From Oceanobacillus damuensis (GTDB taxonomy: Bacteria; Bacillota; Bacilli; Bacillales; Amphibacillaceae), in the NCBI RefSeq assembly GCF_001618145.1, contig NZ_LQNF01000005.1:1-64000 (forward strand): 64,000 nucleotides of DNA. The letters run 5' to 3'. Position numbers and translations under genes: made by a program. Shown here one piece after another: positions 7,933 to 64,000 of this stretch (the first letter of the stretch is position 1; every line of letters begins with the position of its first letter). The notes under the pieces are model-generated. The model did not search any database. It was not told where the DNA came from and saw only the letters and a program-made list of their open reading frames with translations.

Positions 7933-9732
7933 TCAGGTATTTTCAGTTAATCGTATAAATTCCTTTACATCTTTAATGCATAATCTAAGCCCCTTCTCCC
8001 AAAATAGCTCAGAAGTAATATCTTCTTCCAGATATTTCATTACCAAATTTTCTGTTGACATTCTCCCTGAATCACGTAGTAAAGCAAGGTATTCCCTTTC
8101 AAACTCTTTCCCTTTTTCCTTTGCCTTTGCATAGATACATAGAGAAAATAAATATCCGAATGTATAAGGGAAGTTATAAAACGGAGATTTGGTAATATAA
8201 TAATGTGGCGTCCAGACCCACGAATAAGCTGAGGCATTTCCAAGAGAACCATTATAAGCCTCATTTATCGCTTCCTTCATTAAAGTATTTAATCGCGATG
8301 GTGTTACAAATCCCTGTTTTCTTTCCTGGTAAAAATTTTGCTCAAATAAAAACCTGGAATAGATATTCATAAAGTTCATTACACTGCGTTTTAACTTTTC
8401 ATCTAATAAAAAAATCTTCTCTTCATTAGAAGTTGTCTTTTCAATCGCTGCATCTAATACAATCATCTCTGAAAAAGTAGAAGCAGTTTCCGCCAAACTC
8501 ATGGGATAATGCCTGTTCAATCCATCAACATCTTTCATAGCATAATTATGGTAAGCATGTCCTAGCTCATGAGTAAGAGTTAATACGTCATTTATAGATC
8601 CACCATATGTCATGAATATTCTAGACTCTTCTATTAGAGGGAAGCCTGCACAAAATGCAACAGCCGATTTATTTGAACGGTTTTCTGATTCAACCCATCC
8701 CTTTTCAAACGCATTTAAAGTGAAGTTTTCTAATTCTGGTCCAAATTCACTAAGGTGCTTAATTACAAAATCTACAGCTTTTTTATAGTCGATCTGTTGC
8801 TTATTTTCTGTTATAGGAGCCCAGAAGTTATACGCGTTTAGTTTTGTTTCACCAAGCATTTCAGCCTTTTTATCTAAGTAATCAGTAAAAGTTTTTTTGT
8901 GTTTATTAACCGCTCCCCACATTGCATCCAAAGTATCTTCTTCTATTCGATTATCTATTAACGGCTCTTTTAATACATTTTCAATTCCTTTATTTTTATA
9001 CACTTGGAGTCGAAAACCAGCAATGTGATTCAGAATTCGTGAAAACAAATCCTCTTTCTCTTCCCAAGTTTTCTCTAATGCCTCGTGTGATTCTTTGCGC
9101 ACTTCTACATCTGAGTGTGACCTTAATTTTATTGCCTGACCTACCGATAATTCATTTATTGTACCGTTGATTGAGACATGAACTTTTAGTTCACTTATAA
9201 GCGCATTGTAAAACTGCCCCCAAGAATGATAACCATCAATCATTAGATCAGAAACTAATTTCTCTTCATTTTCATTTAGCTGATATTCACCTTGTTTCCT
9301 CCATTCGTTTAATATGAACTTATAATTACTTAGCAAATTAGAATCTAACAATTCCTTCCAAAACTTTCCCTCTATACTTTGAAGGATTTTTTGTGTTTTA
9401 TGAACAAGTGATTCAAAACTAGCACCAATGTGTCCAATTTCACTTTGAAGTGATGTAGCTTTTCGTTCTTTCGGGTTCTGTGCTAACAAGCATATAATAA
9501 AAGAATTAGCTTGTGATAAATGAATTCTAAGGGTACCTATATATTCCATTAACTCTGCAACCTTTATTGAATCAGCAACATTGTGTGGAGGCTGAAAGTT
9601 ACTTACTTTTCTATGTAATTTATTAATTTTAATTTTCAATTCTTTTATGTGTTCAAGTAATTGATGTGATTCACTACCACCAGGAAATAATTTATCTAAA
9701 TCCCATACCTCTTGATACTTAGTGTCTTCCAT
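7933..9732 (-). CDS. pepF: M3B family oligoendopeptidase (PepF-like)
   Basis: Cytosolic zinc metallopeptidase cleaving short peptides. The zinc site is visible as HELGH (in LTHELGHAYHNYAM) with the downstream glutamate in SLAETASTFSEM. Size (599 aa) and architecture match oligoendopeptidase F. The start is ATG 9732: the upstream TTG at 9750 sits just 5' of the GAGGGAG that serves as its ribosome binding site. Standalone gene with about 290 bases of spacer upstream. Confidence 0.88.
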   Translation of the reverse strand: MEDTKYQEVWDLDKLFPGGSESHQLLEHIKELKIKINKLHRKVSNFQPPHNVADSIKVAELMEYIGTLRIHLSQANSFIICLLAQNPKERKATSLQSEIGHIGASFESLVHKTQKILQSIEGKFWKELLDSNLLSNYKFILNEWRKQGEYQLNENEEKLVSDLMIDGYHSWGQFYNALISELKVHVSINGTINELSVGQAIKLRSHSDVEVRKESHEALEKTWEEKEDLFSRILNHIAGFRLQVYKNKGIENVLKEPLIDNRIEEDTLDAMWGAVNKHKKTFTDYLDKKAEMLGETKLNAYNFWAPITENKQQIDYKKAVDFVIKHLSEFGPELENFTLNAFEKGWVESENRSNKSAVAFCAGFPLIEESRIFMTYGGSINDVLTLTHELGHAYHNYAMKDVDGLNRHYPMSLAETASTFSEMIVLDAAIEKTTSNEEKIFLLDEKLKRSVMNFMNIYSRFLFEQNFYQERKQGFVTPSRLNTLMKEAINEAYNGSLGNASAYSWVWTPHYYITKSPFYNFPYTFGYLFSLCIYAKAKEKGKEFEREYLALLRDSGRMSTENLVMKYLEEDITSELFWEKGLRLCIKDVKEFIRLTENT

Positions 9733-9860
9733 TCTTTTTCTCTCCCTCAAAATCGTCGTATATGGTCACTTTCTAAGTGTGACAAATAATAATTTGTTCT
9801 TTCACTAAACGTCTCCTTGGAGAAATAGTATCCTATGTCATTGATATATTTATTGCTATT

Positions 9861-9887
9861 AAAAGGGCTAAATTAATGATAGCCCTT
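9861..9887 (-). terminator. Terminator after the DUF3291-like gene
   Basis: AAGGGCTA (9863-9870) pairs with TAGCCCTT (9880-9887); on the minus strand the stem is followed by a T-rich tract. It lies downstream of the gene at 10026-10364. Confidence 0.5.
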
Positions 9888-10025
9888 CAATAATAACGCA
9901 ACAACCAAAAAATGTTTAAAAAAATAAAATATTCTTGATAGTCGCATTTTGAACTCTTGACACAGTGTGCTCAACCAGAATTTTTTATCTGAAGTAAGAA
10001 ACATTTCGTTCTGTAAAGTTGTACC

Positions 10026-10364
10026 TCATACATTTCTTCCATACTTCTTAAATAACGTGTCTTTACACTCATCCCAATCAGGAATAGTTTCTGCATCCCA
10101 ATTCACTGATTCTAATTCATCTGCAATATTTCGTGATATTTTCATTGCCTTTAAATGATTGCCATTATTTCGAAATACTTTCATATGTTCCTTACTTTCC
10201 CATACTGTCAATGTCCAATAGGTAACCCATCCTTCTTTATTAAAAGAAGAAAATTTTAATCCATCTGCTTTTCTTGACTGAATGATTGATTTAATTGTAT
10301 AAACAAAAAAGCGTGGTAACTTTCGCTTCCCTTTTAAATGCAACCTAGTAACTGAAATAAACAA
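10026..10364 (-). CDS. DUF3291 / antibiotic biosynthesis monooxygenase-like small protein
   Basis: A protein of about 112 aa with the dimeric alpha/beta-barrel look of ABM-like families: VTRLHLKGKRKLPRFF, SFNKEGWVTYWTLTVWESKEHMKVFRNNGNH, ending DWDECK. Start choice: GGAGGGAGG at about 10373-10381 points to TTG 10364 (MFISVTRL...) 8 nt downstream, whereas ATG 10385 lies upstream of that site. Function unknown; homologues are annotated only by domain. Confidence 0.65.
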   Translation of the reverse strand: MFISVTRLHLKGKRKLPRFFVYTIKSIIQSRKADGLKFSSFNKEGWVTYWTLTVWESKEHMKVFRNNGNHLKAMKISRNIADELESVNWDAETIPDWDECKDTLFKKYGRNV

Positions 10365-10794
10365 TTCGCATTCCTCCCTCCACATAAAAACATATAATAG
10401 TTATATTCCACTTATATGTTTGAAAATCCTTTGTACATGTTTATGACTTTCGCCCTCTGCCATTTATGTACTGATGACCACATTGTTGTGTTATAACACC
10501 CGTTACGTGAACGATTAAAAAGTTTGGTTATTGGTATGATATTGAATTGGATGCAAGATAAAATATCATAAAGAAACTAAAAATAACGTAGTATGCTTGT
10601 AACGTTTGAACATTGAGTTGCAAATGTCACCCGTACTATTAACCTTTAATAATCATACGGATCTTTTAGATTAAATGTTTCATTAAATTCTCTTTGTTTG
10701 CTTATTAAAAATTTACTTTGACAAACGTTGGGCCAAAGATTCGATTATTTTGCTGCTGGACAGGAGAGGAGAAAAAAAATTCAATAAAACTATA
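10365..10794. other. Intergenic region without recognisable features
   Basis: About 430 AT-rich bases between two minus-strand genes. I see no gene, repeat or clear regulatory motif apart from the terminator at its right edge. Confidence 0.5.
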
Positions 10795-10818
10795 AAAGGA
10801 CTCCCATATAGAGAGTCC
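10794..10818 (-). terminator. Terminator of the small 69-aa protein gene
   Basis: An 8-bp stem (10798-10805 with 10811-10818, one G-T pair) with a 5-nt loop, followed by TTTT on the minus strand, 39 bases past the stop. Confidence 0.7.
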
Positions 10819-10856
10819 AATGCATGCCAAAAATCTGGAGATGCTTTTACTTAATT

Positions 10857-11066
10857 CTAATCTCTTGCCCTGGAGTCATGATTGTTGTCATCAACGGTTC
10901 CTTTTCCATCCTTGTTCTCTACCGATTCGTCACCAACAGCACCTACAGCAGTACCAAATGGATCTAGAGCAGTAGCTATAGTGTCTCCAGGAAAAGCACC
11001 TACACCACTTCCTACTGACTTGCCAGCATTGTTACCGCGACGTTTGCGTTCGTTGTTATCAGCCAT
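10857..11066 (-). CDS. Small Gly/Asp/Asn-rich hypothetical protein
   Basis: 69 aa with a clear ribosome binding site (GAGGGAGTG, 6 nt before ATG). The N-terminus is basic (MADNNERKRRGN), the middle is Gly/Ala-rich (SGVGAFPGDTIATALDPFGTAVGAVG) and the C-terminus is acidic and probably disordered. No signal peptide, no cysteine. Its own terminator follows. I do not recognise the family. Confidence 0.6.
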   Translation of the reverse strand: MADNNERKRRGNNAGKSVGSGVGAFPGDTIATALDPFGTAVGAVGDESVENKDGKGTVDDNNHDSRARD

Positions 11067-11380
11067 CTATTTCACTCCCTCTTTTTATTAGGGAAGTGCT
11101 TTTTTTAACAGCACTGTCCCCTAACATATTTTGTCCAATAGGAACAATTTTACGAGGAGGGATTGATAGTCAGCATCAGTAAGTATTTTCTTCCTTCTAC
11201 TCTTCTGTATGCATAATGGGAGAGAACCCTTTCCAGGCGGGAGAGAATACGCTTCACTCGAGACACAGACTCTGCCGGGCGGGAAAGACCAACATCACTC
11301 GGGAGAAAACCACAGTGAGAAGGTTATAGTGACCGGAGATTTCGAAAATCTACTGTCTAATTCCTTTGCCTTCAGCCAGT
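11067..11380. other. Intergenic region with hairpin and degenerate repeats
   Basis: It holds a hairpin (11088-11100 with 11110-11124; AGTGCT/AGCACT core) just upstream of the small-protein gene, and a stretch (about 11215-11310) with recurring GGCGGGA/GGGAGA words. No gene found. Confidence 0.4.
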
Positions 11381-56868: not shown

Positions 56869-57600
56869 TCATTTCTTATTCAAAATAATGATAGCCCCAC
56901 CATACCCCAATACACACCATATCAATAAGTTAATGTAGTTTCCTGCCGTCGCCTCAAAGGTGGACGCAGCCAGGGACGCCCGCATCACTTCTGCCATCGA
57001 GTAGATTGGCAGCACTTCATGAAGGGCCTGAAGCCATTCCGGCAGTCGCTCCATCGGAAAATTAACTGGCGAAAACATAAGTGCTCCGAAGACAACGACC
57101 TGTGAAATACCAAGTGATGCTGTTGGTGACAAGAGATAGGAAAATCCGTATCCGACACCAATGGAAGTTAATGCAATCATGAGTAATGCTGGAACAACCG
57201 TCCAAGAGATATCGTACCCTGGACGAAACATAAGGTGTGCGACAATCGTGGAAGCGACAATACCTGGTATGGTGATTAATAACCATAGCGCTGTATCTGC
57301 TCCAAGAATGACGGAACGTTTAACAGGCCATGTGCGCATAAACTCCATATATCCATCTGATTTTGCAGTGCCAACCTGTTGCGGCAAAATAACTAATCCC
57401 GTAAAGATTAGAATGATGGTTGGAGCTCCTGTTGCCAGAAACAGAATGGTTGCCGTGTCCGGTGATGGGATAAGATACGTAAATCCGATAACAATTCCGA
57501 TCGATATCAATATCTGAATGAGGGCTATAAAAACAAAAAATCCTGCGTTTCTGAGAAATTGCATTTGAAAGACATATTTGTAATGGCTCAAAAGATTCAT
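56869..57600 (-). CDS. ABC-2 type transporter permease
   Basis: 243 aa, about six membrane segments, of the ABC-2 exporter type (VVFGALMFSPVNFPMERLPEWLQALHEVLPIYSMAEVMRASLAA is the typical ABC-2 signature). Its ATG overlaps the ATPase stop by 4 bases. With the ATPase it forms an efflux system controlled by the MerR regulator of the same operon; probably drug or peptide export. Confidence 0.85.
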   Translation of the reverse strand: MNLLSHYKYVFQMQFLRNAGFFVFIALIQILISIGIVIGFTYLIPSPDTATILFLATGAPTIILIFTGLVILPQQVGTAKSDGYMEFMRTWPVKRSVILGADTALWLLITIPGIVASTIVAHLMFRPGYDISWTVVPALLMIALTSIGVGYGFSYLLSPTASLGISQVVVFGALMFSPVNFPMERLPEWLQALHEVLPIYSMAEVMRASLAASTFEATAGNYINLLIWCVLGYGGAIIILNKK

Positions 57601-58532
57601 TTCTGCACGACCACCTTTTTCGAAGTTAATTCAATATAGGCATCCTCAATGGTAGCTGGAGACAAGGAATAGTCCAGAATAAGTCCGTTTTCCACTTGCC
57701 TCTCTGCCCATTCAATCGTTGAGGATACTTCCCTCGGATCCATAGCGAAAATTAATCGAGATCCATTTCTATGGGAGGAGAGTGCCCAGCTGGGAATTTC
57801 CAGGTCTGACTCACTAGCTAAACTAAGCTCCATTCGCATTTGGTTACTTACAGAACTTTTTACTTCTGAAGGTGTCCCCTGCGTCAGAATTTTCCCCTTA
57901 TCGATAATCGCCACACGATCAACTGCCTTTTCAGCTTCAAGCACATTATGTGTCACTAAAATAACCGAAGTACCATCATTTGTCAGATTACGTATCACTT
58001 GCCAAAGATACCGCCTGCGAACCGGATCAACATCATTTGTAGGCTCATCGAGTATCACTAATTTACCAGGGGCAATCACTGCCATACAAAAAGCGGTTAG
58101 TCGCTTAGCACCACCCGATAATTTCTCACCTTCTTTATTTGCCCACTCTCCCATATCCAATGTTTCAAAAAGCATTTCCACCCGCTTCGGGTCAAACTGT
58201 TTCCCTGCACGCATTTTCCCCATAAGTGTAACTGCCTGTTTCGGGGTGAGAAAACCCAGTGGCACCTGGGACTGTGGCTGGACGGAACAAATCGAGCGAG
58301 CCCGGGCAGGTGACCCGATTACCGATTCTCCTAACAGCTGAATATCACCACGATCAGGGGTTATTAACCCTAATATTTGGTTCACCAATGTCGTCTTCCC
58401 AGCTCCATTCTGACCGAGAAGCCCATATATTTCACCTTCCTGTATACGAAGTGAGACATTATCATTGGCAACCATCTTGTTTCTCCCTCGGCCAGAGAAC
58501 ACTTTTGTTACAGCCTTCACGTCAAGAACCAT
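57597..58532 (-). CDS. ABC transporter ATP-binding protein (ABC-2/drug export type)
   Basis: 311 aa. Walker A GQNGAGKTT, signature variant LSGGAKRL, Walker B LVILDEPTNDVDP, H-loop VTHNVLEAEKAVDRVAIIDKG, with a C-terminal domain typical of DrrA/CcmA-like exporters. Start 58532 lies inside the MerR gene (11-base overlap) with GGAGGGTGAAAC upstream; the 326-aa reading from 58577 is not supported. Confidence 0.86.
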   Translation of the reverse strand: MVLDVKAVTKVFSGRGRNKMVANDNVSLRIQEGEIYGLLGQNGAGKTTLVNQILGLITPDRGDIQLLGESVIGSPARARSICSVQPQSQVPLGFLTPKQAVTLMGKMRAGKQFDPKRVEMLFETLDMGEWANKEGEKLSGGAKRLTAFCMAVIAPGKLVILDEPTNDVDPVRRRYLWQVIRNLTNDGTSVILVTHNVLEAEKAVDRVAIIDKGKILTQGTPSEVKSSVSNQMRMELSLASESDLEIPSWALSSHRNGSRLIFAMDPREVSSTIEWAERQVENGLILDYSLSPATIEDAYIELTSKKVVVQK

Positions 58533-59265
58533 GTGTTTCACCCTCCTTTGCAATAGCGACCCGTTTGATAAAATCAATCACATCTTTATTCATTGGATAA
58601 AAAGCGATACCTTCCTGCAGGTTTTGCAGAGCTTCCCACATATTTACAAGCAATTCTTCATCCTGCCCAAACATTTTATCTGCTTGGTCTGCCCAGCTTA
58701 TAACAAGCTGCTCGGCCTTATCTGAGTTTGGATCGAGATGCAGGTTATTTCTAATATCACCAACGACCTTTAACCATTCCTTGATGTCTTCCTCACTCAT
58801 TTGTGCGGCATTCATGTCCATAATCCTCTTCATTTCATCTTCGTTCAGATATTCCTCATATGGCTTCAGGGCATCTCCAGGATCTTGTTGATACAGCTTG
58901 ATCATACTGAAAATGATTGGCCAATTGATTTCCCCTTCAAACTCAATGGAATATGATACGCCAAGAAGTGCTTGTTCTAACATTTTTAAACGTTCCTGTT
59001 CGCGTTTAACCAACTCCAATTGGTGCTGAATCGACTCCTGCCAGTTTGCCGTTGAATTTTCCAATATGTCTCTAATTTGTTCCAGTGAGAATCCCATATA
59101 TTTTAAAGCTAAAACACGTTCTAACCGCATCACATCATCTTCACTATATAAACGATGCCCACCACTCGTTTTTGATGAAGGCTTAATCAAACCAATTTCA
59201 TCATAATAATCCAATGTCCTTACTGTTACCCCTGTGCTCTTTGACAATTTCCCGATTGTATACAT
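58522..59265 (-). CDS. MerR-family regulator with TipAS-like effector domain
   Basis: 247 aa. N-terminal MerR HTH (MYTIGKLSKSTGVTVRTLDYYDEIGLIKPSSKTSGGHRLYSEDDVMRLERVLALKYMGFSLEQIRDIL), coiled coil (about 75-120), then a TipAS-like helical ligand domain. It should activate its own operon (ABC ATPase and permease) on binding a drug-like ligand; a MerR-type promoter with 19-bp spacing lies just upstream. AGGAGGGGTGAGGGG ribosome binding site. Confidence 0.88.
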   Translation of the reverse strand: MYTIGKLSKSTGVTVRTLDYYDEIGLIKPSSKTSGGHRLYSEDDVMRLERVLALKYMGFSLEQIRDILENSTANWQESIQHQLELVKREQERLKMLEQALLGVSYSIEFEGEINWPIIFSMIKLYQQDPGDALKPYEEYLNEDEMKRIMDMNAAQMSEEDIKEWLKVVGDIRNNLHLDPNSDKAEQLVISWADQADKMFGQDEELLVNMWEALQNLQEGIAFYPMNKDVIDFIKRVAIAKEGETHGS

Positions 59266-59499: not shown

Positions 59500-61623
59500 T
59501 CATCCATTATACTGTAAACCATGTCCCAGTTTATAAACATTTCCATCGCTGTCTTTGTAGGCATAGCTGATTCCTTCTGGCATATATTTATCTTTATCAT
59601 AGCCTGGAACATCATTTCTAGATACACAATTACCATCTTCATCGACGGCAATCACTTCTTCACTTGCTGGTAATGTCAACGGCAGGACACCTGTTGGCTG
59701 ATTGTTTCCAGCAATAATTTCAAGCTGTGCTTTGAAGAATGTATCGTACCCGGCAATCAAGGCATCTGCCAATGGTTCTACATTTCCTAGAAGCCATGGC
59801 AAGATAACATTTACACTTATAATGACTTTTCCTCCGCGGTTACGGATGTTCTCTGCCACTTTATTCAAATGCTCCAACTCACTTAAAGTAGTATCTTGAT
59901 ATGGAGAACCATCCATCGCTTTTAATGATTTATTTTCACATAGACCGAGCTCTAACAATCCTGGTGTTGCATTAAAATAGGTGCCCGATTTCGGCTGCAG
60001 GAACAATATGGCGATATCCGCTTCTTCATACGCGTCGGTTAACTCAAATTGACCTAATTCCTTCGCATCGGCCAGTGCCTGCTCCGTATATGTCGCCGCA
60101 TGTTCTGTATCCTTATGATAAGCTTTTATATACACTTTTTTACCTTCCAGCTTGTCTGCTGTTAATGGCAACGTTTCATTTGAATTTTTCAAAATGGTAA
60201 CTGATTTTTTGTGTGCTTCATATGCTGCATCCCAGTGTGCAGGTGTATTTACTACCTTATCCGCATTTTCTGGTGAATTGTACGTGCGATCATCAAACAG
60301 ACCTAATGCAAACATTTCTGTGAGCAATCTTTCATTTGCTTCATTGATCCGCTTTTCACTGATCCAGCCACGATCTACTGCTTCTTTCAGGTTTTCAATA
60401 TCATTTGTATCTGCGATGATATCTGTTCCTGCATTAACCGCTTTAGCAAAACGCTCTGCCACACTTAAACTTTCAACGCCCCAGCTCATATTGTTAACGA
60501 TACCGCTGTCACTGTTAATATAGCCTTTGAAGCCCAGTTTTCCGCGCAGAATATTTTCAAGGAAATAATGATTAAATGCAAATCCAACCTCTTCGAATGG
60601 AATATCCTTACCTTCAAATTCCTGATACACACTCTTCTTGATGCTTGGGATTGAGTAATAAGGCATGATGGAAGACGTTCCATGTTCGACAGCTGCTCTA
60701 AACGGTGGCAGATGATATTTTTCTAGACTCCCCGGAGTGGGATAAAGATTCCATTTTCCTTCTTTATAATGTGGATCAAACCCATTTTCCCTTGGTCCTC
60801 CCCCAGGGAAATGTTTTGTTGTCATCGCAATACTGTTTGTGCCTAACGTTTCCCCTTGGAATTCGTCAATAATACGGCCAATTGCGTCTGCAATAAATTC
60901 TGGATCCTCTCCAAATGTACCATATGTTCGCTGCCATCTTGGATCTGTGACCACATCCGCCATATACATATAACCTTTTCTTAAACCGGTTGCATTCCAT
61001 TCATCGTGGGCAATTTTGGCAAATTCACTGATGATGGACGCATCCTTACCATTTTTAATATCACCCATCGCTGCTGCTGCAAGACCCAATGTGCCTGGCC
61101 ATGTGGAAAAAATACCAATTGCATCATTCATTCCAAAGATAGATTCACCATTTTCATTTCTTGAATTGGATGTAACGATGACTGGAATACCCAAGCGTGT
61201 TTTCTCTGCTAACTCATTCATCGTATTAATCCATTCCGCTGTTTCTTGCGGGCTAAAATTATCTCGTAAAATGAAATGACGTAAATGTCTATCTTCAATG
61301 GTATGCGTCGTTCCATATACTTTGCTGGTGGCAAAGATACTTTCTCCCTTTTCCACAATCCCTTCATCTAACACACCATCATGGCTAGTTTTGCTCTTAT
61401 CTTCCTGATAAAGACCCATTCTGCGCGTGTTAATCAGCATCATACCAATTTTTTCATCGATATTCATTAAAGAAACTAGATTTTTCGCGCGTTCTTCCGG
61501 GCTTAATCGCCAATCTTCATAAGGGTCAAGCTTTCCATTGTTATTTAAATCTTTAAATGTGAAACCATCTTCTTCAATAAGCTGCTTGTTTCTCACTTCC
61601 AGTTTTGGTTGTTTGTCTTCCAT
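59500..61623 (-). CDS. Cytosolic glycoside hydrolase family 3 beta-glucosidase-like
   Basis: 707 aa without a signal peptide. GH3 N-terminal barrel: LVSLMNIDEKIGMMLINTRRMG, MTTKHFPGGGPRENG, nucleophile Asp in FKGYINSDSGIV (about residue 367); C-terminal GH3 sandwich with VTILKNSNETLPL and GVLPLTLPAS. It hydrolyses non-phosphorylated beta-glucosides (or related sugars) inside the cell. AGGAGG before ATG. Downstream of and co-directional with an unusual EIICA transporter gene, which suggests it acts on the sugar that transporter brings in. Confidence 0.87.
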   Translation of the reverse strand: MEDKQPKLEVRNKQLIEEDGFTFKDLNNNGKLDPYEDWRLSPEERAKNLVSLMNIDEKIGMMLINTRRMGLYQEDKSKTSHDGVLDEGIVEKGESIFATSKVYGTTHTIEDRHLRHFILRDNFSPQETAEWINTMNELAEKTRLGIPVIVTSNSRNENGESIFGMNDAIGIFSTWPGTLGLAAAAMGDIKNGKDASIISEFAKIAHDEWNATGLRKGYMYMADVVTDPRWQRTYGTFGEDPEFIADAIGRIIDEFQGETLGTNSIAMTTKHFPGGGPRENGFDPHYKEGKWNLYPTPGSLEKYHLPPFRAAVEHGTSSIMPYYSIPSIKKSVYQEFEGKDIPFEEVGFAFNHYFLENILRGKLGFKGYINSDSGIVNNMSWGVESLSVAERFAKAVNAGTDIIADTNDIENLKEAVDRGWISEKRINEANERLLTEMFALGLFDDRTYNSPENADKVVNTPAHWDAAYEAHKKSVTILKNSNETLPLTADKLEGKKVYIKAYHKDTEHAATYTEQALADAKELGQFELTDAYEEADIAILFLQPKSGTYFNATPGLLELGLCENKSLKAMDGSPYQDTTLSELEHLNKVAENIRNRGGKVIISVNVILPWLLGNVEPLADALIAGYDTFFKAQLEIIAGNNQPTGVLPLTLPASEEVIAVDEDGNCVSRNDVPGYDKDKYMPEGISYAYKDSDGNVYKLGHGLQYNG

Positions 61624-61744
61624 GCGAGTTCATCCTCCTATATTTTTTATTCTGATTGGAATACTATCCAGTTGCAAAGGTGTTACATGGCTTCAAAATA
61701 AACGGTTTCATTGTCTGTTCATAGAACCCTCCTCCAACATCCTG

Positions 61745-63307
61745 TTATAAAGCCAGTTTCAATAAACTGTTTTCCGATGATACGGACGTTTCTTCTGTAA
61801 CATCGATATGGGCATATTCCTCTGTATTTGTAATGACGACTGATGTCGTGATGTCAAACCCAGATTTTTCAATGTTTTCCATATCGAATTCTAATAATAG
61901 ATTACCCTTTTTCACTTGATCCCCTTGCTTGACATGGACATTGAAAAATTGCCCATTCAGCTTCACTGTATCTATACCTACGTAAATTAAAATCTCTGCG
62001 CCATTGTTGGAAGTGATTCCAATCGCATGCTGTGTAGCGAATAAGGTCGTAACTTCACCATCCACAGGGGCGTAGACTTTCCCTTCTGCCGGTTGGATTG
62101 CAGCTCCTCTTCCGACTGTATTTGTAGCAAATAGCGGTTCATTCACTTCAGATAAAGGGATGACATTCCCTTTTAATGGACTGGAAACTGTTTCTGGCTT
62201 GATCACCTTCAGGTCAAAGGTATCATCATTTTTACTTTGAAAGCCAAGGACAAATGTAAAGGTTAATCCTAACACAAAGGCTGCTCCGGTTCCGACTAAA
62301 TGCTGACTGATAGGTGAGAAGGCAGGTATGGACAGTACACTTGGAAGTACAAAATCATTCATCACGACACCAAATGCTCCATTGATCGCCCCTCCGATTG
62401 CACCGGCAACAACGACATAAATAATCGTTTTTCTGTAGCGCAAGAGAATTCCGTAGTAAATTGCTTCTGTCGTACCAGCAAGTGCACCTGGCAGGATCCC
62501 GCTTGCGGCAAGTGACTTCAGTTCATTGTCTCTCGTTTTGAAAAATATGGCTATTGCGACCGCAATTTGAGCAAATACAGCTGGTGCTGCCATGCCGATA
62601 ATTGGATCAGGGCCATTTGCCAGGTTGGCAATAGCAAGTGGAATGATTGTCCAGTGCAATCCTGCAATGGTAAGGAATGTCCACGCACCGCCGAGAACCG
62701 CTCCTGCCAATAGGCCGCTTTTGTCACTAAGAAAAGTTATAATGGCACCAAGACCTTCTCCAACTAAATTTCCAAAAGGACCAAAGAAAAGCATCGTTAA
62801 TGGCACCAGGATAACCAAAGATATAAGCGGGTTGATAAACATTTGGATATCTTTATATATAATTCTTTTCAAAAACTTCTCTAACCCTGCATAAACAAAC
62901 ATTGCAATAAAAATCGGAAATACGGTTGAGGAATAGTCTGCCAAATTAACAGGTAGACCTAAAAAGCTGATTGTTTCGACACCCGCGTCGACAAGGTTAA
63001 TTATTTCAGGAGTTAAAAGAGCTGCTCCAATTGCTCCCCCGACATAGCCATTCCCGCCTAGCTTTATTGCGATTGAAATACCAAGAAAGACAGGAAGGAA
63101 ATAAAATATAGAATTCCCGGCAGCAGATAAAACAATATAGGTACCGCTTTCACTTGAAAGCCAGCCAAGCTGACTTAAGACAGATAAGGCTGCTTTTAAC
63201 AGACCTGCACCAGCAAGTACGCCAATGATTGGGGCAAAACTCCCGGAAATCACTTCGAGAACTTTAGAGAAGTTCGACTCTTTTTGTTCGACATCATTCT
63301 GACTCAT
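61745..63307 (-). CDS. PTS-like beta-glucoside EIIC-EIIA protein lacking EIIB and the EIIA phospho-His
   Basis: 520 aa. EIIC membrane domain (about 12-357, GSFAPIIGVLAGAGLLKAALSV at the start, GTTEAIYYGILLRYRKT with conserved Glu) is followed by an EIIA(Glc)-type domain (about 385-505: VYAPVDGEVTTLFATQHAIGI). Beta-glucoside permeases normally start with an EIIB domain of about 85 aa; it is absent. The EIIA phosphorylation-site His (ILIHVGIDTV in relatives) is Tyr442 here (ILIYVGIDTV, codon TAC at 61982-61984), while the second active-site His (His427) stays. It may therefore transport without phosphorylation. Start 63307 has AAAGGAAC upstream; ATG 63346 does not. Confidence 0.85.
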   Translation of the reverse strand: MSQNDVEQKESNFSKVLEVISGSFAPIIGVLAGAGLLKAALSVLSQLGWLSSESGTYIVLSAAGNSIFYFLPVFLGISIAIKLGGNGYVGGAIGAALLTPEIINLVDAGVETISFLGLPVNLADYSSTVFPIFIAMFVYAGLEKFLKRIIYKDIQMFINPLISLVILVPLTMLFFGPFGNLVGEGLGAIITFLSDKSGLLAGAVLGGAWTFLTIAGLHWTIIPLAIANLANGPDPIIGMAAPAVFAQIAVAIAIFFKTRDNELKSLAASGILPGALAGTTEAIYYGILLRYRKTIIYVVVAGAIGGAINGAFGVVMNDFVLPSVLSIPAFSPISQHLVGTGAAFVLGLTFTFVLGFQSKNDDTFDLKVIKPETVSSPLKGNVIPLSEVNEPLFATNTVGRGAAIQPAEGKVYAPVDGEVTTLFATQHAIGITSNNGAEILIYVGIDTVKLNGQFFNVHVKQGDQVKKGNLLLEFDMENIEKSGFDITTSVVITNTEEYAHIDVTEETSVSSENSLLKLAL

Positions 63308-63390
63308 TATAATGTTCCTTTCTTTTTTTCTTGAATGGAGATGCAAGAATTTCTGCTATGCTATTTTCTCCACTCAATTAATACGCTTAC

Positions 63391-63445
63391 AAATTAAATT
63401 GTATTATTTTCTGTGAAATACAATGGTAATAAATTAAATTGTATT
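63391..63445. promoter_or_regulatory. Operator-like array between transporter and divergent regulator
   Basis: AAATTAAATTGTATT occurs twice (63391-63405, 63431-63445), and the inverted word AATACAAT lies between (63417-63424), giving three ATTGTATT boxes about 20 nt apart. Likely binding sites for the divergently encoded regulator. Confidence 0.5.
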
Positions 63446-63566
63446 TTATTTTGAATATATCTCTATATTAAATTGATTTTTTGTTTATACATAGGATAAA
63501 ATTAACGTTAATCGGATAAAAACTACATATTTGACAAATTTCGCATTATGAAAGGAGATGATAATT

Positions 63567-64000
63567 GTGTACTCAAAAATAGTTTCTACTGCAATAAAGA
63601 TTTCACACCTTACGCAATTAAATACATATGTAGTTGATAAGAATGGAGATGTTGTCTACCACGACGCAAAAGTCTCCGTACCAGACTACATGCCCGGAGC
63701 TAAGCATATGGATGTCTTGGAGTTTTTTCATAAAATGAAAGAAACAAATCAAGTCTATACCTATATCAATCCTTGGGGACTATCCTATTTAGGTTATTCT
63801 TTTTTGGATCAGAGAGAATTTTACGCAATCATCATTGGCCCCTATTTTGAAGTAATTCCGGATATATACGGTTTAGTAATGCAATACAATCTCACCATTC
63901 AACAAAGCGCTGATTTAAGAAGTGTTATCGAAAAAGTAAACGTTGTAACCGCTGAGCAAATAAGCAGTTATGAGGCAGTGCTTCAGCTGTTTGACTCGAT
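63567..64000 (+). CDS. N-terminal part of a probable AraC-like regulator (cut by window end)
   Basis: GTG 63567 follows AAAGGAG by 9 nt and opens a frame that runs off the window (144 codons: YSKIVSTAIKISHLTQLNTYVVDKNGDVVYHD..., INPWGLSYLGYSFLDQREFYAIIIGPYFEV...). This region resembles the sensor part of AraC/YesN-type regulators of sugar operons. The HTH that would confirm it is outside. Divergent from the EIICA-GH3 operon, so it is its likely regulator. Confidence 0.6.
   Translation, partial: MYSKIVSTAIKISHLTQLNTYVVDKNGDVVYHDAKVSVPDYMPGAKHMDVLEFFHKMKETNQVYTYINPWGLSYLGYSFLDQREFYAIIIGPYFEVIPDIYGLVMQYNLTIQQSADLRSVIEKVNVVTAEQISSYEAVLQLFDS

Follow-up and report, generated by a model that had tools for sequence, protein, structure and literature searches.

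How a permease of the phosphotransferase system (PTS) might serve its host once the parts needed to phosphorylate the substrate have been lost is the question raised by the right end of the window, the 64,000 nt stretch of DNA analyzed here (Oceanobacillus damuensis, assembly GCF_001618145.1, contig NZ_LQNF01000005.1, positions 1 to 64,000). The permease gene (61,745–63,307, minus strand) codes for a protein of 520 residues when translated from its ATG, or of 533 residues when translated from an alternative TTG start at position 63,346. On the same strand, 125 bp downstream, follows a gene for a glycoside hydrolase of family 3 (GH3; 59,500–61,623, 707 residues). The original prediction, made from the DNA letters and their translations, had described the pair as a PTS-derived sugar permease with EIIC and EIIA domains, devoid of EIIB and with a tyrosine in place of the EIIA phospho-histidine, and a cytosolic glucosidase.

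Residues 22–302 of the permease correspond to the EIIC membrane domain (62,402–63,244; PF02378, 102 bits), and the EIIA domain, with an apparently intact fold, is encoded by 61,814–62,191 (PTS_EIIA_1, 171 bits). The Pfam scan of the permease found no EIIB domain and reported neither a GPH nor an MFS domain. The position of the EIIA phospho-histidine is occupied by Tyr442, counted from the ATG (codon TAC, 61,982–61,984, minus strand), which aligns with the active histidine of the IIAGlc structures from Bacillus subtilis and E. coli, the residue that is phosphorylated in those proteins. The second active-site histidine of EIIA, His427 (62,027–62,029, minus strand), is kept. Within EIIC, the GITEP motif is altered to Gly278-Thr-Thr-Glu281-Ala282 (62,462–62,476, minus strand), with the glutamate kept and the proline lost, and His218 (62,654–62,656, minus strand) is retained. 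From the set of features of a functional PTS enzyme II, the protein has EIIC and lacks the EIIB phospho-cysteine, the EIIA phospho-histidine, and GITEP; its score against TIGR01995 (beta-glucoside PTS IIBCA) is 534 bits, under the cut-off of 615. Domain matches, codon, and IIAGlc alignment thus confirm the predicted architecture, and the absent EIIB together with the replaced histidine supports the view that no normal phosphotransfer chain can run through this permease. It had been considered that an EIIB gene might lie just to the right of the window. Among the open reading frames of at least 120 residues in the roughly 10 kb in this direction we saw an AraC-type regulator and genes unlike EIIB, and no EIIB. 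A whole-genome search with PF00367 (E ≤ 0.001) located EIIB at five places on contigs 34, 12, 3, and 2, and at none on contig 4, which is that of the window.

A scan of named genomes returned 23 loci from Oceanobacillus, Neobacillus/Bacillus, Paenibacillus, Peribacillus, Domibacillus, and Alkalihalobacillus, and the nearest relative of the permease is from O. profundus (90% identity). The decoupled form is common in a few genera and rare outside: within the window's genus, 10 of 28 genomes carry it, within the Neobacillus genus 26 of 61, and in a class-wide sample of 398 genomes it turned up in two, one of them being the window genome. Sequences were fetched for at most the 30 best loci per search. 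After 15 duplicates had been dropped and two loci of canonical length (L129, L130; L and G numbers denote our loci and genomes) had been left out, the alignment held 99 distinct sequences including that of the window, which split into 47 decoupled ones and 52 others. Outside the decoupled group, the EIIB cysteine, the EIIA histidine, and Pro282 are each present in 52 of 52 sequences. Inside it, EIIB is absent from 44 members and has serine for cysteine in the remaining three (L019, L020, L022). Residue 442 of the 46 EIIA-bearing members is Tyr (20), Cys (11), Phe (10), Ile (3), Asn (1), or His (1), while His427 is found in all 46, and the EIIC motif reads GTTEA in 24 members, GTTEI in 20, and GTTEL in 3, and is thus altered in 47 of 47. 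Five more proteins with EIIC were found to be encoded by the window genome, and all of them have G[IV][TS]EP. Loss of the histidine and loss of EIIB, the co-occurrence of which was to be checked by aligning homologues, do go together across the clade. A sequence error at Tyr442, which a histidine in most homologues would have indicated, is refuted by the three nearest relatives, which also have Tyr, and by others with Phe, Cys, Ile, or Asn; an isolated mutation was rejected since the histidine is gone from 45 of the 46.

With three sequences added (L162, L163, L139), the 50 decoupled rows form one clade against 13 chosen canonical rows (bootstrap 100, Shimodaira–Hasegawa-like approximate likelihood ratio test 100; LG+G4 without a mixture model, residues 279, 282, and 442 excluded). 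A fast tree computed from the 99 sequences under a mixture model (residues 282 and 442 excluded) agrees with a single clade. Residue 442 has changed at least 11 times on the tree. The carriers of Cys-less EIIB domains are split between two parts of the tree, and two of them, L019 and L022, group as sisters of Paenibacillus proteins that have no EIIB; because of this split, and because the domain is not easily regained, EIIB would most simply have been inactivated first and then deleted at least twice. The three Cys-less domains still match the Pfam EIIB model (28–35 bits) and are 66–85% identical to each other; they appear to be inactive, though not obviously decaying. A tblastn search upstream of the EIIB-less genes gave no convincing EIIB remnant (E 0.06–0.26); one match at 7e-8, with a canonical EIIB query, lies about 3 kb downstream in L026. 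The protein of L049 is an EIIC alone (382 residues; the same gene as L140:6898-8043, minus strand), from which EIIA is gone, and no EIIA remnant was found nearby; in L140 this gene neighbours one of the peptidase S58 family. The median ratio of nonsynonymous to synonymous substitution rates (dN/dS), taken from 18 hand-picked pairs, is 0.114 for EIIA and 0.073 for EIIC. Because the losses are clade-wide and the rest of EIIA is conserved, we take this to be a decoupled transporter and not a sequence error or decay, and we are highly confident that the decoupling is a fixed conversion of the whole clade with living intermediates. Among the matches listed from the open-licence PMC literature there was no description of such a clade, although a published account may nonetheless exist.

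For the EIIC domain, the correspondence with PtsG was taken from a multiple alignment in which the GITE and GLH motifs coincide; Glu281, Thr280, and His218 align there with PtsG E298, T297, and H211. According to the accessible part of PMC11393339, PtsG E298 coordinates the OH-6 of glucose. The changes of the clade flank the Thr-Glu pair (residue 279 has become Thr, and residue 282 is no longer Pro); further residues of the clade are Asn159 (47 of 47) and Ala or Thr at position 220. The alignment points to a binding site that is kept but may be remodelled around the C6 subsite. Comparison of EIIC with solved structures by sequence gave no match. From the low-confidence structure models we used the EIIA part and the fold class of GH3, the EIIC model being poor.

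The partner enzyme, which has no signal peptide as judged by eye, finds its top match among 53 matched PDB sequences in SN243 (E 6e-108), the PDB entries of which (7QE1, 7QE2) contain glucuronic acid or p-nitrophenyl-beta-glucuronide. The two are 33–36% identical on structural alignment and have the motifs SN.RN and KHFPGGGP in common. Asp372 in NSDSG (60,508–60,510, minus strand), the predicted nucleophile, is the same in all nine GH3 partners that were aligned, and it lines up with the aspartate altered in the SN243 mutant D415N. Equally present in 9 of 9 is Asn153 in SNSRNE (61,165–61,167, minus strand); SN243 also has Asn here, and 9ul7, a related GH3 of 620 residues labelled as a beta-glucosidase (E 5e-81), has Asp. 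Asn153 may thus stand in place of the glucosidase aspartate in the −1 site and may have a role in specificity. Since the nearest solved relative was crystallized with glucuronic acid, the enzyme is probably a beta-glucuronidase rather than a glucosidase. Its assignment to GH3 in the original prediction stands, while glucosidase is no longer the most fitting label.

Neighbouring genes were compared within 5 kb of 50 decoupled and seven canonical loci (five decoupled loci have a shorter flank on one side; canonical neighbour families were named from members in L027). A LicT-type antiterminator accompanies 7 of 7 canonical and 0 of 50 decoupled loci, and a GH1 gene 6 of 7 and 0 of 50, respectively (GH4 was not searched separately), which bears out the earlier claim that the partner is no phospho-glycosidase. 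GH3 genes occur near 12 of the 50 decoupled loci and lie 44–125 bp from the permease gene in eight of these 12, seven of them in the orientation of the permease and one convergent with it; the state of having a GH3 neighbour has changed at least five times on the tree. In Oceanobacillus alkalisoli (L028), a broken permease and a broken GH3 gene lie side by side, as if the pair had been lost together. A GH2 enzyme of about 600 residues is encoded near three of the 50 loci, and all three score well above the cut-off of 544 bits for the UidA beta-glucuronidase equivalog NF007538 (L020, 889; L145, 906; L147, 900). The order AraC, UidA, decoupled permease is found in genomes G935 and G945 (the GH2 of L147 being that of G945). 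Elsewhere in Neobacillus, UidA adjoins a GPH-type symporter-like gene, as judged by eye, in six loci (L176–L181), and other UidA loci (L172, L173, L175) adjoin a regulator 66–73% identical to that of L145/L147. With UidA found elsewhere beside such a symporter-like gene or a similar regulator, the arrangement in G935 and G945 fits a decoupled permease that takes the place of a UidB-like symporter.

The phosphate transferred by a PTS goes on C6 of the sugar, and C6 of a uronide is a carboxylate. Because this carboxylate cannot accept the phosphate, a uronide would explain why EIIB, the EIIA histidine, and GITEP have all changed in one clade: an EIIC specific for glucuronides would need neither EIIB nor the EIIA histidine. 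Sugars with a carboxyl group at C6 enter by systems other than the PTS, as stated in the available portion of PMC6837340. The beta-glucoside that had been proposed as substrate is doubtful, as the neighbouring genes favour beta-glucuronides, and we give a beta-glucuronide or a similar uronide an even chance of being the substrate. EIIC would then take this compound outside and carry it across by the usual elevator movement, without phosphorylation; the intact compound would reach the cytoplasm, where the co-encoded hydrolase would cut it, and hydrolysis would maintain the inward gradient, which amounts to facilitated diffusion. Xylose and galactose are known to be carried by EIIC proteins that do not phosphorylate them (PMC10989795, in its accessible part), and we consider a facilitator rather than a symporter reasonably likely. 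EIIA might serve as a structural or regulatory tail, non-phosphorylatable and in effect locked in the dephospho state. Taken as a whole, the reading that combines a decoupled PTS permease, a uronide substrate, facilitated entry, and a non-phosphorylatable EIIA tail seems to us evenly balanced between right and wrong. More tentative, falling somewhat short of even, is the evolutionary version of it, in which a PTS lineage, through loss of the EIIB cysteine, the EIIA histidine, and GITEP, has turned into a dedicated beta-glucuronide importer with EIIA as a permanently dephospho-like regulatory tail, and in which two unrelated beta-glucuronidases, GH3 and GH2, were recruited in different lineages.

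Several observations weigh against this reading. Neither GH3 nor UidA is encoded within 5 kb of 35 of the 50 decoupled loci. A search of the window genome for UxuA at E 1e-30 was negative. In tallies of carriers that ignore phylogeny, UxuA is present in 1 of 10 carriers of the same genus versus 5 of the 9 non-carriers tested there (Fisher p 0.057, in the wrong direction) and in 11 of 26 carriers and 11 of 35 non-carriers of Neobacillus. Ordinary glucuronate catabolism is therefore not evident in the window genome; the uronate released by hydrolysis may be used by another route, or the aglycone alone may be used. None of the 19 genomes tested from the window's genus has a UidA above the cut-off; in Neobacillus, with phylogeny again ignored, it scores above the cut-off in 9 of 26 carriers versus 5 of 35 others (p 0.07, not significant), and one of these five non-carriers has an internal stop in UidA. 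Moreover, the UidA gene of G921, G922, G933, G936, and G959, five of these nine carriers, adjoins its own GPH-symporter-like gene (by eye) and thus need not depend on the decoupled permease. One aligned clade member, L008 (= L040), has His442, with EIIB absent and the motif GTTEAI; its codon is one base away from the Tyr codon of the window, and the histidine may be a reversion. Finally, the structure models are poor (predicted local distance difference test 58 and 57).

Some of these points would suit a decoupled permease whose substrate is neutral, a beta-glucoside or a xyloside, with the GH3 enzyme being a glucosidase or xylosidase, which we consider unlikely but by no means negligible. The lack of UxuA would agree with it, as would partial NCBIfam matches of the GH3 enzyme, far under the cut-offs, to exo-beta-1,3/1,6-glucosidase and xylosidase models, the beta-glucosidase label of 9ul7, and the permease sisters, which are PTS of the beta-glucoside type (TIGR01995); a xyloside, too, is without a C6 hydroxyl. 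However, SN243 is the closer relative (6e-108 vs. 5e-81) and shares the Asn where 9ul7 has Asp, UidA is found near three other loci, and a neutral glucoside provides no reason to drop phosphorylation. The mode of transport can be questioned independently of the substrate. An EIIC coupled to H+ or Na+ instead of working as a facilitator is, in our view, rather improbable: an energized replacement would be plausible because UidA of Neobacillus elsewhere looks paired with GPH-type symporters (six loci, by eye), and His, Glu, or Asp are common in the clade at positions 101, 65, and 104, but known non-phosphorylating EIIC transport, as far as covered by the accessible part of PMC10989795, is facilitated diffusion.

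Two further explanations deny the decoupling itself or the transport, and both have very little probability. EIIB and EIIA of another PTS might phosphorylate the substrate of this EIIC in trans, for which the genome, with EIIB at five other places, offers candidates, and cross-talk between PTS transporters of Bacillus subtilis has been reported (PMC6148471, in its available part). Yet the EIIBs that are still attached have serine for cysteine in 3 of 3 cases, GITEP is altered in 47 of 47, and GH1 neighbours are found in 0 of 50 loci, so that we regard phosphorylation in trans as very improbable. Slightly lower still we place the possibilities that the protein is a pseudo-transporter in decay or that it acts as a sensor and transports nothing. 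EIIB has been deleted repeatedly, EIIA has been lost in L049/L140, and L028 has a broken copy, but the listed matches of the other members are without internal stops, EIIC has a dN/dS of 0.07 with its key residues kept, and the close spacing of GH3 (within 44–125 bp in 8 of 12 loci) also argues against decay.

Divergent from the permease, an AraC-type regulator of 403 residues begins at 63,558 on the plus strand and runs past the window end at 64,000. Its homologue in L006 (82% identical) carries the AraC helix-turn-helix, and regulators of this cluster occur near 25 of the 50 decoupled loci; to the UidA-side regulators the one from the window is just 28–30% identical over about 400 residues. 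The gap between regulator and permease (63,393–63,493) contains AT-rich direct repeats, ATTAAATTG, in three copies with spacings of 40 and 34; three close relatives, L006, L007, and L136, showed no counterpart of them at the corresponding position. The window has six matches to catabolite-responsive elements for CcpA, none of them at the permease. M20-type amidohydrolases of one cluster are encoded near 6 of the 50 loci (L145, L147, L151, L158, L159, L161), and M20-looking genes, as judged by eye, lie upstream of the permease in L009–L011; perhaps these enzymes hydrolyze aromatic conjugates. In L154, a heparinase II/III-like protein with DUF4962 is encoded close upstream of the decoupled permease (9012–11288, minus strand), hinting at uronic-acid polymers. 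Next to GH3, at 56,869–59,265 (minus strand), are genes for a MerR regulator, an ABC ATPase, and a membrane protein, which have counterparts in L006 and L007 and are probably a separate export unit.

The nearest sisters of the permease are of the BglP/BglF type (IIBCA, TIGR01995), with the same EIIC and EIIA families in the same order. Unlike these, the clade has EIIB absent or Cys-less, the EIIA histidine gone with one exception, and no proline in GITEP, and its loci have no LicT or GH1 neighbour in 50. LacS resembles the window protein as a membrane carrier with a C-terminal IIA-like tail, an unphosphorylated substrate, and a cytosolic hydrolase partner; however, the carrier of LacS is of the GPH type whereas that of the window is an EIIC, and the window tail is without the phospho-histidine used in LacS regulation. 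The tail of LacS acts through phosphorylation by HPr(His~P), according to the accessible text of PMC10703360. LacS-like phospho-regulation of the tail, to which the comparison in the original prediction would lead, is rejected because this acceptor histidine is gone (from 48 of the 49 EIIA-bearing members in the 50-row set), and LacS is an analogy for the architecture, a carrier with a IIA tail, and not for the regulation. EIICs with facilitated diffusion, namely mutant E. coli GatC and EcolC_1642 for xylose and the glucose PTS for galactose, likewise transport unphosphorylated sugar; as described in the available part of PMC10989795, these belong to ordinary three-part PTS and represent side activities or selected mutants, whereas the loss has been fixed naturally in the window clade. 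For the partner GH3, the closest solved relative is SN243, from which the activity of the window enzyme is predicted.

We expect that genomes carrying this permease are likely to be credited, by homology, with a working beta-glucoside PTS. If our reading is true, group translocation has naturally reverted to simple transport, with intermediates, in which EIIB is present but Cys-less, still alive, and the absence of a C6 hydroxyl would be the chemical reason for the switch. The clade would then be a test bed for those EIIC residues that couple transport to phosphorylation, with the EIIA of L008/L040 as a natural control for phosphorylation tests, and it would possibly represent, in addition to UidB, a new type of importer for glucuronides.

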